DNA of 52,186 nt from Gammaproteobacteria bacterium (GTDB taxonomy: Bacteria; Pseudomonadota; Gammaproteobacteria; SZUA-140), in the NCBI GenBank assembly GCA_015488555.1, contig WFNO01000088.1, positions 1 through 52,186 on the forward strand. Reading direction: 5' to 3'. The notes beneath the pieces are model-generated. The model worked only from the letters and a program-made list of their open reading frames with translations. It had not been told where the DNA came from and searched no databases. Shown piece by piece: positions 2,786 through 40,197 of this stretch. The position numbers and the translations under genes are program-made. Position 1 is the first letter of the stretch, and each line of letters starts with the position of its first letter.

Positions 2786-4150
2786 TCAACCGAACAACTG
2801 CACAAGGTCGTTGTAGAAGGCCAGCACCATGACAGCGATGAGGATGACGATCCCGAGCCGCTGGCCAAGGGCCTGCATCTCCTCGGAAAGGGGACTGCCC
2901 TTGACGAACTCGATGGCGTAGAAAAACAGATGGCCGCCGTCCAGCATGGGCACGGGCAGGAGATTCAGCACGCCCAGGCTGATGCTGATGAGAGCCAGGA
3001 ATGCGATGAAGGATACCAGCCCCACGCTGGCGGAATAGCCTGCGAACTGCGCGATACGGATGGGGCCGCCCAGGTTCTCCACCGCCACGTCTCCCACCAC
3101 CATGCGCCACAGCATGCGCAGGGTCAATATGGTCATATCCCAGGTCCGCAGGGCAGCCTTGCCGGCAGCGTCCAGCGGACCGTAGCGCTCCACCGTCTGC
3201 AACTCCGCCATCAGTTCTTCCGGGTAGGCCACAGCGGCGCCAATGCGACCGATAGGACCTTCCTGGGTCTCCACCACAGCCGGCTTCAATGTGAGCGTAA
3301 TCTCCCGGCCATCCCGCAGAACGGTCACCACTAAGATCTCGCCAGGATGTCCGCGTACTCGCTCCACCCACTGCCCCCATTCGTCGATGGCCTCGCCGTC
3401 CACCATGAGGATGCGATCACCCGCCTGCAGGCCAGCCTGTTCAGCGACGCCCCCTGGTTCCAGGGAACCGATCACCGGCAGAATGGAGGGAGAATAGGGT
3501 TGCAGGCCCAGATTAGCGATGAGATTGGCACGGTCCACGTCGGCTGGCAGGCGGCTGAAGTCCAGCACACGCAGCCGGTGCAATCCTTCCGCGTCTCGCA
3601 CTTCCACCTCGATGCGCTGTCCGTCCAGGCTCTCCTCCATGAGGGCCAGGTAGGCACTGTTCCAGGTCTGCACCTGTTTGCCATCGATGCGTAGCAGCAG
3701 GTCCCCCTCGCGAAAACCGCCCTGCTGCGCCAAGCTGTTGGGCTGGATTTCCCCCACCACGGGCTTCATACCTTCGATGCCCATCATGAAGACCAGCCAG
3801 TACGCCACGAAGGCGAAGAGAAAATTCGCCAGCGGGCCGGCGGCAACGATGGCCGCCCGGTGACCCAGGGGCTTGCGGTTGAAGGCCTGGTCCAGTTCCG
3901 CCTCGGGAACCGGTCCTTCGCGCTCATCCAGCATCTGCACGTAACCGCCCAGGGGCAGGGCTGCAATCACGTATTCGGTATCGTCACCTTGGCGCCGCCA
4001 ACTCCAGATGGGTTTGCCAAAACCCACGGAGAACCGCAATACCTTCACACCCAGGCGGCGCGCCACCCAGAAGTGGCCGAACTCGTGCACCGTGATCAAC
4101 AGGCCGATGGCGACGATAAAAAAGAAGATGGACGACAAGACGGTGCTCAT
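2786..4150 (-). CDS. rseP: Site-2 intramembrane zinc protease RseP
   Basis: RseP cleaves the transmembrane segment of the anti-sigma factor RseA after DegS has cut it, releasing sigma-E when outer-membrane proteins misfold. The 454-residue protein matches the family length (E. coli 450). The zinc site HEFGH is at residues 22-26 in the first membrane helix. Two tandem PDZ domains occupy roughly residues 120-300. The third metal ligand lies in [12 protein letters not shown], with LDG at 403-405, followed by a last membrane helix. The ATG overlaps the dxr stop in an ATGA junction, so translation is probably coupled. The sigma-E link matters here because the rpoH promoter in this window looks sigma-E dependent. 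Confidence 0.97.
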
Positions 4151-34749: not shown

Positions 34750-35601
34750 TCACGCCTCCATGGCGTTGCGCAGCTTCTTGAGGGCGTTCTTCTCCAATTG
34801 GCGAATGCGTTCGGCCGAGACCTCGTAACGATTGGCCAGGTCCTGCAGCGTCATCTTTTCGTCCGCCAGCCAACGTTGCTGCAGGATGTCACGGCTACGT
34901 TCATCCAGCGTCTCCAGTGCAGCGTGCAGACGCCGTTCGCTGTGATCGCGCCATTCGCTGTCCTCCACCTGTGTGGTGGGATCCATGCGCAGATCCTGCA
35001 GATAGGCCGCCGGGGCCTGATAACCCTGATCCTCGTCGTCACGCTCATGGGCATCGAAAGAAGCATCGTATCCGCTCAAGCGCGATTCCATCTCCAGCAC
35101 TTCGTCAGGACGCACGCCCAGATCCTTGGCCACCGCCTCCACTTCTTCCTTGCCCAACCAAGCCAGGCGCTTCTTGGCCGCACGCAGGTTGAAGAACAGT
35201 TTGCGCTGGGCCTTGGTGGTGGCCACCTTGACGATACGCCAGTTGCGCAGGATGAATTCGTGGATCTCGGCCCGGATCCAGTGCACGGCATAGGACACCA
35301 GGCGCACGTTCATCTCGGGATCGAAGCGCTTGACGGCCTTCATCAGCCCCACATTGCCTTCCTGGATCAGGTCGGCCTGGGGCAGGCCATAGCCGGCGTA
35401 ACCGCGGGCGATGTGCACCACGAAACGGAGATTGGCCAGTACCAGCTGGCGGGCCGCATCCAGGTCGTTCTCCTGGCGGTAACGCCGCGCCAAGCGCCGC
35501 TCTTCCTCTGCATCCAGCATCGGAATGGCACTCACTGCCTGGATGTAGGCCTCCAGACTGCCGCTGCTCAAAGCTAGACTGTATTCAAAATCTTTGCTCA
35601 T
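34750..35601 (-). CDS. rpoH: Heat-shock sigma factor RpoH (sigma-32)
   Basis: RpoH directs RNA polymerase to heat-shock promoters. The 283-residue product (E. coli 284) begins [29 protein letters not shown]. It has region 2 with [54 protein letters not shown]. The RpoH box is present ([10 protein letters not shown]), followed by the region 4 helix-turn-helix [27 protein letters not shown]. The ATG at 35601 has GAGGGGGAG about 12 bases upstream. The frame is open for 50 more codons, but that part covers the promoter and CIRCE element and has no homology. Upstream elements suggest sigma-E, sigma-70 and HrcA control. Confidence 0.97.
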
Positions 35602-35645
35602 GTGTAATATACTCCCCCTCGGGATGATGGGCAGATTTCCAAATT

Positions 35646-35672
35646 TTGGCACTCTGCCTTTGAGAGTGCTAA
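35646..35672. promoter_or_regulatory. CIRCE operator (HrcA binding site) upstream of rpoH
   Basis: TTGGCACTC-N9-GAGTGCTAA at 35646-35672 matches the CIRCE consensus TTAGCACTC-N9-GAGTGCTAA at 17 of 18 arm positions with the exact 9-base spacer. It lies 45-71 bases upstream of the rpoH ATG and overlaps the -10 region of both candidate promoters, so HrcA bound here should repress rpoH. Confidence 0.85.
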
Positions 35673-35688
35673 TAACGCAAAAAGTTCC
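35661..35688 (-). promoter_or_regulatory. Candidate sigma-E promoter of rpoH
   Basis: On the minus strand, GGAACTT (35688-35682) is 16 bases from TCTCA (35665-35661). E. coli rpoH P3, a sigma-E promoter, has GAACTT, 16 bases, then TCTGA. The -35 here is a perfect sigma-E consensus. Transcription would begin near 35654, inside the CIRCE element. Confidence 0.7.
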
Positions 35689-35697
35689 CCGAGACAA
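35670..35697 (-). promoter_or_regulatory. Candidate sigma-70 promoter of rpoH
   Basis: TTGTCT (35697-35692), spacer 16, TTATTA (35675-35670) on the minus strand. The -10 overlaps the first arm of CIRCE by three bases. It is a moderate match that could supply basal transcription. Confidence 0.45.
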
Positions 35698-35875: not shown

Positions 35876-38800
35876 TCAAGAGCGTTTGCCTGCACGCCGG
35901 CTGCGCGTGCAGAGCCCCCGGGCTATTAAGAATTCTTCGACTTCTTCCGCCAGCAAGGGCTCGCTGAACAGATAGCCCTGCATGGCATCGCAGTCGCACC
36001 GACGCAGGAATTCCAGCTGCTCTTCGGTCTCCACCCCTTCCGCCGTGACCCGCATATTGAGGCGGTGTGCCATAGCAGTGATGGCGCTGACGATGGTGGC
36101 ATCGTCCGGATCTGTGGTGATGTCACGAATGAAAGTGCGATCAATCTTGAGACTGTCCACAGGGAAGCGTTTCAGATAGCTGAGAGAGGAATAGCCGGTG
36201 CCGAAATCGTCGATAGCCAGCCGCACACCCATGCGGTGCAAGGCCTCGAGGTTGCTCAGGGAAGCGTGGTTGTGCTGCATGAGCACGCTCTCGGTGATCT
36301 CAAGTTCCAGAAGATGGGCTGGTATCCCTGTCTCTTCCAGGACGCGGGCCACCTGGATGTTGAGTTCTGGATCGTGGAACTGGCGCCCAGAGATGTTGAT
36401 GGCGATGTGCAGAGGCCGGCCCAATAGTTCGTTCCAGCGCGCCGCATGGCGACAGGCAGTGCGCAATACCCAATGCCCCACTTCCGTGATGAGTCCGGTT
36501 TCCTCCAGAATAGGAATGAACTGAGCGGGGTTGACCGGACCCAGCTCCGGATGTTGCCAGCGCAACAGGGCCTCCATGCCCAGTAGGGCCTTGCCCCGTA
36601 CTTCCACCTGAGGCTGGTAGACAAGATGGAATTTCTCCTCCGGCAGGGCCTGGCGTAGGCCGCTTTCTAAAGTTAGACGTTCCATGGCCGCTTCGCCCAT
36701 GTCTGTAGCATAAAATTGGTAGTTGTTGCGACCCCGCTCCTTGGCTCGATACATTGCCGCGTCGGCATGCTTGAGCATGGTGGCGGCGTCACGGCCATCG
36801 TCCGGACAGAGGCTGATGCCGATGCTGGTGGTCACATACAAGTCTGGCCCCTCCACCTTGAAGGGCTTGGCCAGGGCCGCGCGAATCTTGTCTGCCACTT
36901 GGGAAACTGCCTGTACCGAAGGTACGTCCTCCAGCAGGATGGCGAATTCGTCCCCTCCGAAACGCGACACCGTGTCGCCTTCCCGCACGCAGCGAGTAAG
37001 CAGCCGTGCAAAGGCCTGCAGCAGACGATCGCCAGTGTCGTGTCCCAGGGTGTCATTGATGGTTTTGAAGCGATCTACGTCCAGGAACATCAACGCCACG
37101 CGACTGCCCTCTGCCCGGCGTCGGGACAGCGCATGGCTGAGGCGGTCCATGAACAGGGCACGATTGGGTAGATCGGTGAGCACGTCGTGATAGGCCAAAT
37201 GGTGCAGGCGTTCCTCAGCCTGCATGCGCTCGGTGATGTCCTTGCCGGTGGAAATGAAATGGGTAATGCGACCGGCATCGTCCAATAGAGGGGTAATACT
37301 TTTTTCTTCGTAATACAGGCTGCCGTCCTTGCGGCGATTGATCATCACGTCGCGGTAAACCTGTCCCGACAGGAGTGTCTGCCACATGTGTTCGTAGAAC
37401 TCCGGTTCGTGACGCCCGGATTTGAACAAGCGAGGTGTCTGCCCAAGGACCTCCTCGCGGGTGTAGCCCGTGGTCTTTTCGAAGGCTGGATTGACGTATT
37501 CGATAATGCCCTGCGCATCGGTGATGCAGATGGAGTCCGCCGTCTGCTCCACTGCTCGGGTGAGTTTGAGCATCTCTGCGCGTGCCCGCTGGCGCTCGGT
37601 GATATCGAAGGCATAGATGCTCACGTACTGATCAGCGGCACTGGGTGTGAACATGAACGAATATTCCCGGTCACCACAAGGGATATCTACCTCTACGTTC
37701 TGCTCACAGGCCAGCGCCTCCGCGCAGTGATGCAGGATTTCCTCGGGCACCGGCTCGTTTACGCGGCAACCCCAATGCTCCAGCAAAAACTGAGCCCCCT
37801 GATTGGCGAAGATGAGCCTGCCGTCACTGCGCACCCGTAATACCGGGCTAGGGTTGCCGATGGGGAACTTGATCAGGTCTGCGATCTCCGTCGCGGCCTG
37901 TTTGTGGGACAGCTCGGCAGCCATGCGGTTGGCAAAAATCCGGAGGATGGACTCCGCCACTTGGTGATCCTCCATGGGACGTCGGCTCATCACCGCAGCC
38001 AATCCCAGGATCTGCCCTTCCGTATCGAAGAGCGGCATACCCAGATAACTCACCAGCTCCATATCCATCCCCATCATCTCGGTACAGTGGGGAAAGCGTT
38101 CGGGGAGTCCATCGGGAATGCAATACCCGTTTTCAGCCAGTGCCAGTTCGCAGGGCGTACCCCTGGTCGCATAACAGAAGTTGCTGGTAATCTCACCGTC
38201 CATACATACCGCCAGCATCTCTCCTTTACTGGTGTCCTCGCTGCAAAAAGCAGCGATGAAAGCCACGTCCATATCGAGCGTACGAGCGAGATTCTTCGCC
38301 AGGATGCGGAAGAATTCGTCACCGGTGGAAGAGGACACCGCGTTGGCCACCTCCACCAACACCCGCTCGATACGCTCTTTCTCGTCGGTCTGACGGCGCA
38401 GGGCTTCCTCGGCCTCTTTCTGCTGGGTGATGTCTTCATAGGTGCCCAATACCCCGATGATATTGTTGTCCATGTCCGTGAGGGGAATCTTGCTGGTACG
38501 CAGCCACAGTTTCCTGCCGTCCGGACCGATCTGGGGTTCCTCGAAATTGAGCTTGGCTTGTCCACTCTCCATCACCTGACGATCGTCCTCGCGATAGAGA
38601 TCGGCGTACTCGCGCCATACCAGCTGGTAATCGTCCTTGCCCACGATCTCTTGCGGATTGGACATACCAGCATCCTCCGCAAAGCGCTGGTTACAGCCCA
38701 AGTATTTGAAATCACGTCCCTTCCAAAATACACGTACGGGAATAGTATCCAGAACCAACTGCAACATTTTGCGCGAACGCTTCACGGCCTCTTCTACTCG

Positions 38801-39952
38801 GCGCCGCTGTGCAATCTGCTTCTCTAGTTTGGCATTCACCTCCACCAGGTCCGCTGCCAGGGATTCCACCTCACGTGTACGGCGGATCGAACCAAGCTGC
38901 AACATACACAGCAAAGAGGTCAACAACAGTCCACCAGCCAGGGTCAACCAGGGCTCCCAGGTATTGTGGGCGCTGACGAAGGCCGCCCCCGGCTGAAAGA
39001 CCAGATACCATTCCCGCCCCGGCACCTCCAAGAGCGCACGCCACTGGAAATCGCCGCGTGTGGCCACCACTTCTCCATCGGAGTGATGTTCATGATCCAG
39101 CTTCGTGTCGTAATGGAACAACACCCGCTCCGAGGCTGGCGCCGTGGCATCTAGCATGAGGATGTTGAGATCGAAGATTCCCCAGGACACCACCGCTTCA
39201 CCTACCAGGGTACTGATGTCAATCACACCGACGAGGAAGCCCTGCAATTCCGCCCGCCGCTCTTCCAAATCCCCTAAGGGCTTCGCACTTGAGAAGACCG
39301 GCTTGAGGGCCAGCACCCCGTAGAGTCCCCCCTCTTCGTTCAACGGCAGGCGCTGACTGATCACTGTCTCACCTGTTTCTAGCGCCTGAGCCATGGCCTG
39401 CCGATACATCGGCTCACTGGCCAAATCGAAGCCTATCTGGTGCAGAGACCGCCCCATACTCTCCAGATACTCGATGGGAAAATACTCCGATTGCTCCGGC
39501 AGGCGTTCATGCTTGTCAGAGGCACTGAAGGGCTTTCCAACCATGTGACCGAAGTCCGCAGGTGGCTGGCGTTCGAAAGCAGCATGCACTTCGTGAGAGA
39601 CACGCGGTACCCAGGCAAGTTCCAGCAAGGCCTGATGTTTGAACAAGGGCCCGCGAGCGAAGGAACCGAATTCCTCGCGGGAAACGAAATCAGAACTGCG
39701 ATAGAGGCCATGCAGGTATTCGATGGCCTCGAGGTTGAGTTGGATTTCTTTCTGTAAAGTGACCTTGTGGGCCGAGGCCAGCAATTTGAAGTCCGCCTGC
39801 GTGGATTGCATCTCGGCGTGACGCACGAAGAAGAAAGCACCCAGTGAGAGGACTACCCCACCTACGAGCAACAATTTGAGTAGCAGGAACTGGCGCTCGA
39901 CGGGACTACCACGGCCTCGACTGAGGAAATTGAAGGTCTTGCTGCGGTTCAT
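35876..39952 (-). CDS. CHASE/PAS/GAF/GGDEF/EAL dual c-di-GMP signalling protein
   Basis: A 1358-residue membrane sensor. The order is helix 1 (about 23-43), a periplasmic CHASE domain (60-290, with ALLELAWVPRVSHEVHAAFE), helix 2 (333-354), a coiled-coil, PAS (394-512), GAF (530-680), a weaker PAS-like segment (690-790), PAS (795-910), GGDEF (918-1080) and EAL (1090-1345). The cyclase signature GGDEF is intact at 999-1003, with an inhibitory I-site REGD at 990-993. The phosphodiesterase has EALLRW at 1127-1132 and DDFGTGYSS, so both activities look possible. The ATG at 39952 sits shortly before helix 1. An upstream GTG or ATG would add 30-36 residues without homology. It is a single gene, 274 bases upstream of rpoH, with likely effects through the PilZ protein or other c-di-GMP receptors. 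Confidence 0.93.
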   Translation of the reverse strand: MNRSKTFNFLSRGRGSPVERQFLLLKLLLVGGVVLSLGAFFFVRHAEMQSTQADFKLLASAHKVTLQKEIQLNLEAIEYLHGLYRSSDFVSREEFGSFARGPLFKHQALLELAWVPRVSHEVHAAFERQPPADFGHMVGKPFSASDKHERLPEQSEYFPIEYLESMGRSLHQIGFDLASEPMYRQAMAQALETGETVISQRLPLNEEGGLYGVLALKPVFSSAKPLGDLEERRAELQGFLVGVIDISTLVGEAVVSWGIFDLNILMLDATAPASERVLFHYDTKLDHEHHSDGEVVATRGDFQWRALLEVPGREWYLVFQPGAAFVSAHNTWEPWLTLAGGLLLTSLLCMLQLGSIRRTREVESLAADLVEVNAKLEKQIAQRRRVEEAVKRSRKMLQLVLDTIPVRVFWKGRDFKYLGCNQRFAEDAGMSNPQEIVGKDDYQLVWREYADLYREDDRQVMESGQAKLNFEEPQIGPDGRKLWLRTSKIPLTDMDNNIIGVLGTYEDITQQKEAEEALRRQTDEKERIERVLVEVANAVSSSTGDEFFRILAKNLARTLDMDVAFIAAFCSEDTSKGEMLAVCMDGEITSNFCYATRGTPCELALAENGYCIPDGLPERFPHCTEMMGMDMELVSYLGMPLFDTEGQILGLAAVMSRRPMEDHQVAESILRIFANRMAAELSHKQAATEIADLIKFPIGNPSPVLRVRSDGRLIFANQGAQFLLEHWGCRVNEPVPEEILHHCAEALACEQNVEVDIPCGDREYSFMFTPSAADQYVSIYAFDITERQRARAEMLKLTRAVEQTADSICITDAQGIIEYVNPAFEKTTGYTREEVLGQTPRLFKSGRHEPEFYEHMWQTLLSGQVYRDVMINRRKDGSLYYEEKSITPLLDDAGRITHFISTGKDITERMQAEERLHHLAYHDVLTDLPNRALFMDRLSHALSRRRAEGSRVALMFLDVDRFKTINDTLGHDTGDRLLQAFARLLTRCVREGDTVSRFGGDEFAILLEDVPSVQAVSQVADKIRAALAKPFKVEGPDLYVTTSIGISLCPDDGRDAATMLKHADAAMYRAKERGRNNYQFYATDMGEAAMERLTLESGLRQALPEEKFHLVYQPQVEVRGKALLGMEALLRWQHPELGPVNPAQFIPILEETGLITEVGHWVLRTACRHAARWNELLGRPLHIAINISGRQFHDPELNIQVARVLEETGIPAHLLELEITESVLMQHNHASLSNLEALHRMGVRLAIDDFGTGYSSLSYLKRFPVDSLKIDRTFIRDITTDPDDATIVSAITAMAHRLNMRVTAEGVETEEQLEFLRRCDCDAMQGYLFSEPLLAEEVEEFLIARGLCTRSRRAGKRS

Positions 39953-40197
39953 CGGCCCAGGAATGGATGATGCTGGCTTGAACTTGGGGCGCGCGTGTAC
40001 GAGAAAAGCGAAAACAAGGAGGTATGCTCTACCCTCCCGCATCTGCCGGCCTGTCCCCACAGGCCTCGTCCTGTAGTGTATCGACCCGCTCTAGAATTTA
40101 CTTAACAGATTGAGGAATAGAAGAATATCGAAAGCAGCATGCCGATCTCTCTCCAAGCTTCCCTTTCCTGGTCTCTGTCATGAGGTAAGGGTGCCGA

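Follow-up and report, generated by a model that had tools for sequence, protein, structure and literature searches.

The textbook heat-shock circuit of the Gammaproteobacteria derives from Escherichia coli, which lacks the repressor HrcA and regulates sigma-32, the product of rpoH, by stability and translation. The HrcA and sigma-32 regulons of beta-, gamma-, and epsilon-proteobacteria were reportedly surveyed by Permina and Gelfand in 2003; this survey was outside the reach of our literature search and may list some HrcA sites at rpoH. The sole direct report on HrcA together with rpoH that the search yielded is a motif-search prediction from 2004, which gives a perfect CIRCE element 51 bases before rpoH of Geobacter sulfurreducens and a predicted HrcA regulon that includes rpoH, groESL, and hrcA-grpE-dnaKJ (PMC545781). 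Regarding sigma-E, the SigE promoter of the rpoH gene fam from Bordetella bronchiseptica works in vitro, and both this promoter and rpoH P3 of E. coli are used in vitro by RpoE-like sigma factors (PMC3490749).

Here, we analyzed the rpoH locus of a gammaproteobacterium of the lineage SZUA-140 (assembly GCA_015488555.1), whereby the window was the whole stretch of 52,186 nucleotides from contig WFNO01000088.1. A preliminary description of this stretch had proposed that rpoH is under the combined control of HrcA and sigma-E. The relevant features are the following:

2786 to 4150, minus strand: rseP, encoding the sigma-E-releasing protease (TIGR00054, 392.5 bits, cut-off 147.55), within the usual uppS-cdsA-dxr-rseP-bamA run
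34750 to 35601, minus strand: rpoH, encoding sigma-32, 283 aa (TIGR02392, 417.7 bits, cut-off 323.1)
35643 to 35651, minus strand: sigma-70-like extended -10, TGC-CAAAAT, on the CIRCE right arm (class consensus TGC-TAAAAT, with T changed to C here)
35646 to 35672: CIRCE, predicted HrcA operator, the minus strand reading TTAGCACTC TCAAAGGCA GAGTGCCAA
35661 to 35665, minus strand: putative sigma-E -10, TCTCA, with TC closing the CIRCE left arm and TCA being spacer bases 1 to 3
35682 to 35688, minus strand: putative sigma-E -35, GGAACTT, 9 bases before the CIRCE, with the phase of its GAAC kept to within 1 base at 73 of 109 rpoH sites
35692 to 35697, minus strand: TTGTCT, previously read as a sigma-70 -35, loosely kept in the sister species only

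The start codon ATG of rpoH is located at 35601–35599, and the minus strand upstream of it reads GGAACTT TTTGCGTTA TTAGCACTC TCAAAGGCA GAGTGCCAA AAT. Re-scanning this region gave the same values for the CIRCE as reported before, namely one mismatch to TTAGCACTC-N9-GAGTGCTAA (17 of 18 arm bases), the exact N9 spacer, and a distance of 45–71 bases upstream of rpoH. No other site with up to three CIRCE mismatches occurs in the window (0 expected by chance from shuffles), and the whole 2.35 Mb genome contains two such sites, one upstream of rpoH and one upstream of groES (groESL), whereas a reversed CIRCE control pattern gave 0 matches genome-wide. The site was assigned as a predicted HrcA operator on the basis of its arms and N9 spacer, the presence of hrcA in the genome, and its conservation where hrcA is present (see below). 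The hrcA gene (TIGR00331, 338.5 bits, cut-off 197.2) is followed by grpE. Neither upstream of hrcA nor in the hrcA-grpE gap was a CIRCE with up to three mismatches found, and thus the reach of HrcA may be limited to rpoH and groESL in this organism. The genome also encodes rpoE (TIGR02939, 328.4 bits, cut-off 236.15), which is adjoined downstream by rseA (RseA_N match), and RseP is encoded within the window as had been stated. The sequence AAACTT-N16-TCTAT upstream of rpoE shows the same 16-base spacing as the element at rpoH and constitutes a plausible self-controlled promoter. Further upstream of rpoH and in the same direction, a large CHASE-PAS-GAF-GGDEF-EAL protein is encoded at 35876–40060 (minus strand).

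The pattern GGAACTT-N15-17-TCTNA has one match in the window, located at 35688–35661 on the minus strand, where 0.01 would be expected. Its spacer of 16 bases between GGAACTT and TCTCA is as claimed, and the GGAACTT -35, the spacing, and a TCNNA -10 conform to sigma-E (ECF02) promoters. The 16-base spacing and the TCTNA -10 also match the rpoH P3 sigma-E promoter of Enterobacterales, as seen in Lelliottia. Together, the sigma-E -35 and the CIRCE make up a 43-base element. The -10 had been described as overlapping the CIRCE, which is correct as far as it goes, but mere overlap understates the arrangement since the -10 is itself built of CIRCE bases.

The arrangement had been presented as a feature of this genome, but it turned out to be what rpoH usually has upstream in Gammaproteobacteria with hrcA. 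Most genomes of the same family have a CIRCE before rpoH, with GGGAACTT located 9 or 10 bases ahead of it. Among 80 rpoH loci from named organisms, the CIRCE together with the phased motif occurs in Alcanivorax, Haliea, Parahaliea, Halioglobus, Rheinheimera, Woeseiaceae, Dyella, and Methylothermaceae, and the CIRCE without the phased motif in Pseudoalteromonas and Methylocaldum. In the same set of 80 loci, a CIRCE at rpoH is missing from Pseudomonas, Vibrio, Halomonas, and Enterobacterales, and many of these retain the sigma-E motif. To cover the class as a whole, rpoH, hrcA, groES, and rpoE were sought in 168 genomes, in most cases a single one from each family, which yielded 152 rpoH upstream regions; a CIRCE was called at up to three mismatches. 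It was present before rpoH in 104 of the 115 regions from genomes with hrcA compared to 5 of the 37 from genomes in which hrcA was not found (Fisher p 2e-18, kinship ignored). Thus, there are exceptions in both directions, 11 regions with hrcA and no CIRCE and 5 of the reverse kind, some of which may reflect gaps in draft genomes. The 71 groES upstream regions served as a control, with a CIRCE in 65 of 67 hrcA-bearing genomes. One genome without an rpoE match (G029) carries a tandem CIRCE pair upstream of rpoH (L060), the two copies of which start 95 and 63 bases ahead of the gene. A pattern scan of 397 genomes across the phylum gave 15 matches to the composite, of which 12 precede rpoH, 2 groES, and 1 a clpB-like gene. 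The only match from outside the class precedes groES, so that an extension of the composite at rpoH beyond the Gammaproteobacteria was rejected at the level of this pattern scan, which covered non-gammaproteobacterial genomes by motif matching. The clpB-like case (L363, 1501–1542, genome G082) is a sigma-E/CIRCE composite in front of a gene which, judging from its N-terminus, we take to encode ClpB; rpoH of the same genome has no CIRCE.

The spacing between the two halves of the composite is conserved as well. A GAAC at the exact phase, with GGAACTT ending 9 bases before the CIRCE, was found at 60 of 109 rpoH sites, and within 8–10 bases (counted in the same way) at 73 of 109, compared to 1 of 66 groES sites; after shuffling of the upstream bases the mean number of phased GAACs was 1.1 and the maximum 5. 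Conservation of GGAACTT in relatives also tracks rpoE, since among rpoH regions with a CIRCE the phased GAAC is present in 73 of 97 with rpoE and in 0 of 12 without it (p 4e-7, kinship ignored), which leaves 24 regions with rpoE and CIRCE that lack it. The 9-base gap places the start of the sigma-E -10 TCNNA on the last two arm bases, so that spacer base 3 should be an A. This is the case in 68 of the 73 phased and 18 of the 36 unphased rpoH sites, as well as in 12 of 66 groES sites. GAAC, both arms, spacer base 3, and the three bases past the right arm have a high information content, which is moderate for spacer bases 1 and 2 and close to zero for most other positions. The conservation of GAAC is built in because the phased rows were selected by it, while the spacer and flank columns were unselected. 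Elsewhere in the spacer the sequence varies freely, as it does in most of the 9 bases that separate the -35 from the CIRCE. Overlapping binding sites would be expected to give such a pattern, whereas recent common descent of the entire stretch would not.

A sigma-70 promoter TTGTCT-N16-TTATTA had also been proposed for this region. Its letters are present, but TTATTA makes a poor -10, and class-wide conservation was not seen over the -35 region, which spans 24 to 17 bases ahead of the CIRCE; a similar sequence (TTGAGC-N17-TATTAG) occurs in the sister species alone. The proposed promoter is thus weak and was rejected. The conserved sigma-70-like -10 is instead located on the CIRCE right arm. 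Across the class, the right arm with its three following bases at rpoH reads TGC and then TAAAAT, TAATAT, or similar, and the third base past the arm is a T at 97 of 109 rpoH sites compared to 9 of 66 groES sites (p 2e-24). It is present in 11 of the 12 regions from genomes without rpoE, which indicates that this element is independent of sigma-E. At groES, a conserved -10 (TATTAT or TATGAT) is located immediately before the CIRCE. Furthermore, in groES regions such as L317–L356 the TATTAT/TATGAT is accompanied by an ACT-like end of a -35 located 24 to 22 bases ahead of the CIRCE, which suggests that groES also has a fixed promoter-operator unit.

Two of the observations that would have counted against the proposal did not materialize, since the genome has hrcA and the palindrome is conserved in close as well as distant relatives. 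Taken together, the conserved fixed geometry, its joint occurrence with hrcA and rpoE, and the contrast with groES support the proposed combined control, and we consider it very probable that positions 35643–35688 form a composite promoter-operator of rpoH that is repressed by HrcA and from the inside of which sigma-E initiates transcription; HrcA binding, promoter activity, repression logic, and the sigma-70 role are deduced from sequence comparison. Repressors of the HrcA family are known to be kept active by GroEL. When bound to the CIRCE, HrcA would block the sigma-E promoter, whose -35 is located just outside and whose -10 is located within the operator, and likewise the sigma-70-like promoter, which shares its -10 with the right arm. 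Upon heat or in the presence of unfolded protein, GroEL would be titrated and HrcA thereby inactivated, so that rpoH and groESL would be transcribed together, and sigma-32 would thereafter turn on the remaining heat-shock genes. Envelope stress would release sigma-E, which would transcribe rpoH from the same DNA in competition with HrcA. Such an arrangement would act as a “sigma-E and not HrcA” gate with a basal housekeeping input, and the sigma-E start would be expected near 35654, inside the CIRCE. Two observations from this genome speak against the composite reading, namely the loss of the first T of the right-arm -10 and the one CIRCE base that is off consensus. Across the class, the 11 and 5 exceptions to the pairing of hrcA with the CIRCE and the 24 regions that lack the phased GAAC despite rpoE also count against it.

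It could also be that in this species only the sigma-70-like promoter in the CIRCE is used, whereby the sigma-E promoter would be vestigial, HrcA would hold rpoH at a low and constant level, and heat would act mainly on the protein. The control of sigma-32 in E. coli and the class-wide conservation of the right-arm -10 would fit such a scenario, but this genome has kept the complete GGAACTT-N16-TCTCA whereas it is the right-arm -10 that is degraded, which makes the scenario quite improbable. To a relic, or to a stem-loop in the leader RNA in place of an operator, we assign a very small probability. The mismatch in the CIRCE of this genome would be in line with a relic, and it is known that CIRCE can affect mRNA behavior in some groESL leaders. 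However, the presence of the CIRCE follows that of hrcA across families, and most genomes in which hrcA was not found have lost the CIRCE or retain it in decayed form. The mRNA hairpin was rejected because a sigma-E transcript from the expected start would begin inside the CIRCE, so that the hairpin could not fold. An RNA thermometer in the rpoH leader was rejected as well, since the leader from 35654 is structurally ordinary and folds no better than shuffles (z -0.26). Finally, the CIRCE might repress rpoH while GGAACTT is an extended HrcA contact or a sigma-70 upstream element and not a working sigma-E promoter, in agreement with the 24 genomes that have rpoE and the CIRCE but lack the motif. 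We regard this as unlikely, since the motif is also missing from all 12 CIRCE-bearing genomes without rpoE and from 65 of 66 groES CIRCEs, is one-sided and non-palindromic, and shares spacing and -10 with P3 of Enterobacterales. Moreover, a SigE promoter upstream of B. bronchiseptica fam was demonstrated in vitro (PMC3490749).

In an RpoH tree of 131 rows, most branches include members with the CIRCE and with the composite, and 14 changes of CIRCE state are needed. This tree has no root and little resolution and therefore leaves loss unproved, and the shared geometry argues for a single origin with later losses. In one genome in which hrcA was not found (G087), GAACTT and the left arm are kept and the right arm is broken, and in another (G021) the site is further decayed, which is the expected outcome of hrcA loss. 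We lean slightly towards the view that the interlocked element, consisting of the sigma-E -35, the CIRCE with its internal sigma-E -10, and the sigma-70 -10 on the right arm, was the ancestral control of rpoH in Gammaproteobacteria, and that the E. coli-type scheme, in which P3 works without HrcA and heat acts through translation and protein stability, is a later state reached once hrcA and the CIRCE had been lost, P3 being a remnant.

Overall, the comparative data indicate that this is a real and conserved composite control element with predicted binding, transcription starts, and logic, and they extend the reading beyond one genome to the whole class. A single element of 43 bases appears to receive two stress signals. 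If most families keep rpoH under HrcA and feed envelope stress through the same operator, the negative HrcA circuit and the positive sigma-32 circuit would be connected in series, with E. coli as the derived case. Because the geometry is fixed, this control logic can be tested directly on short DNA with HrcA and RpoE. In the literature searched, no description of the interlocked geometry or of its class-wide reach was found. With G. sulfurreducens the locus shares the CIRCE upstream of rpoH, but in the accessible part of that report this organism is one deltaproteobacterium among several genomes scanned and a sigma-E element is not described (PMC545781). A sigma-E-type promoter upstream of rpoH is common to the present locus, E. 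coli (P3), and B. bronchiseptica (fam). However, E. coli, which was included as a control in the hrcA search, gave no HrcA match and lacks the repressor half, and its sampled relatives have no CIRCE at rpoH, whereas here the predicted HrcA operator includes the -10. The operator and repressor are the same as at groESL, but the groES operator follows its -10 while that of rpoH contains the -10 elements of its promoters, and thus the two operators are placed differently on their promoters.
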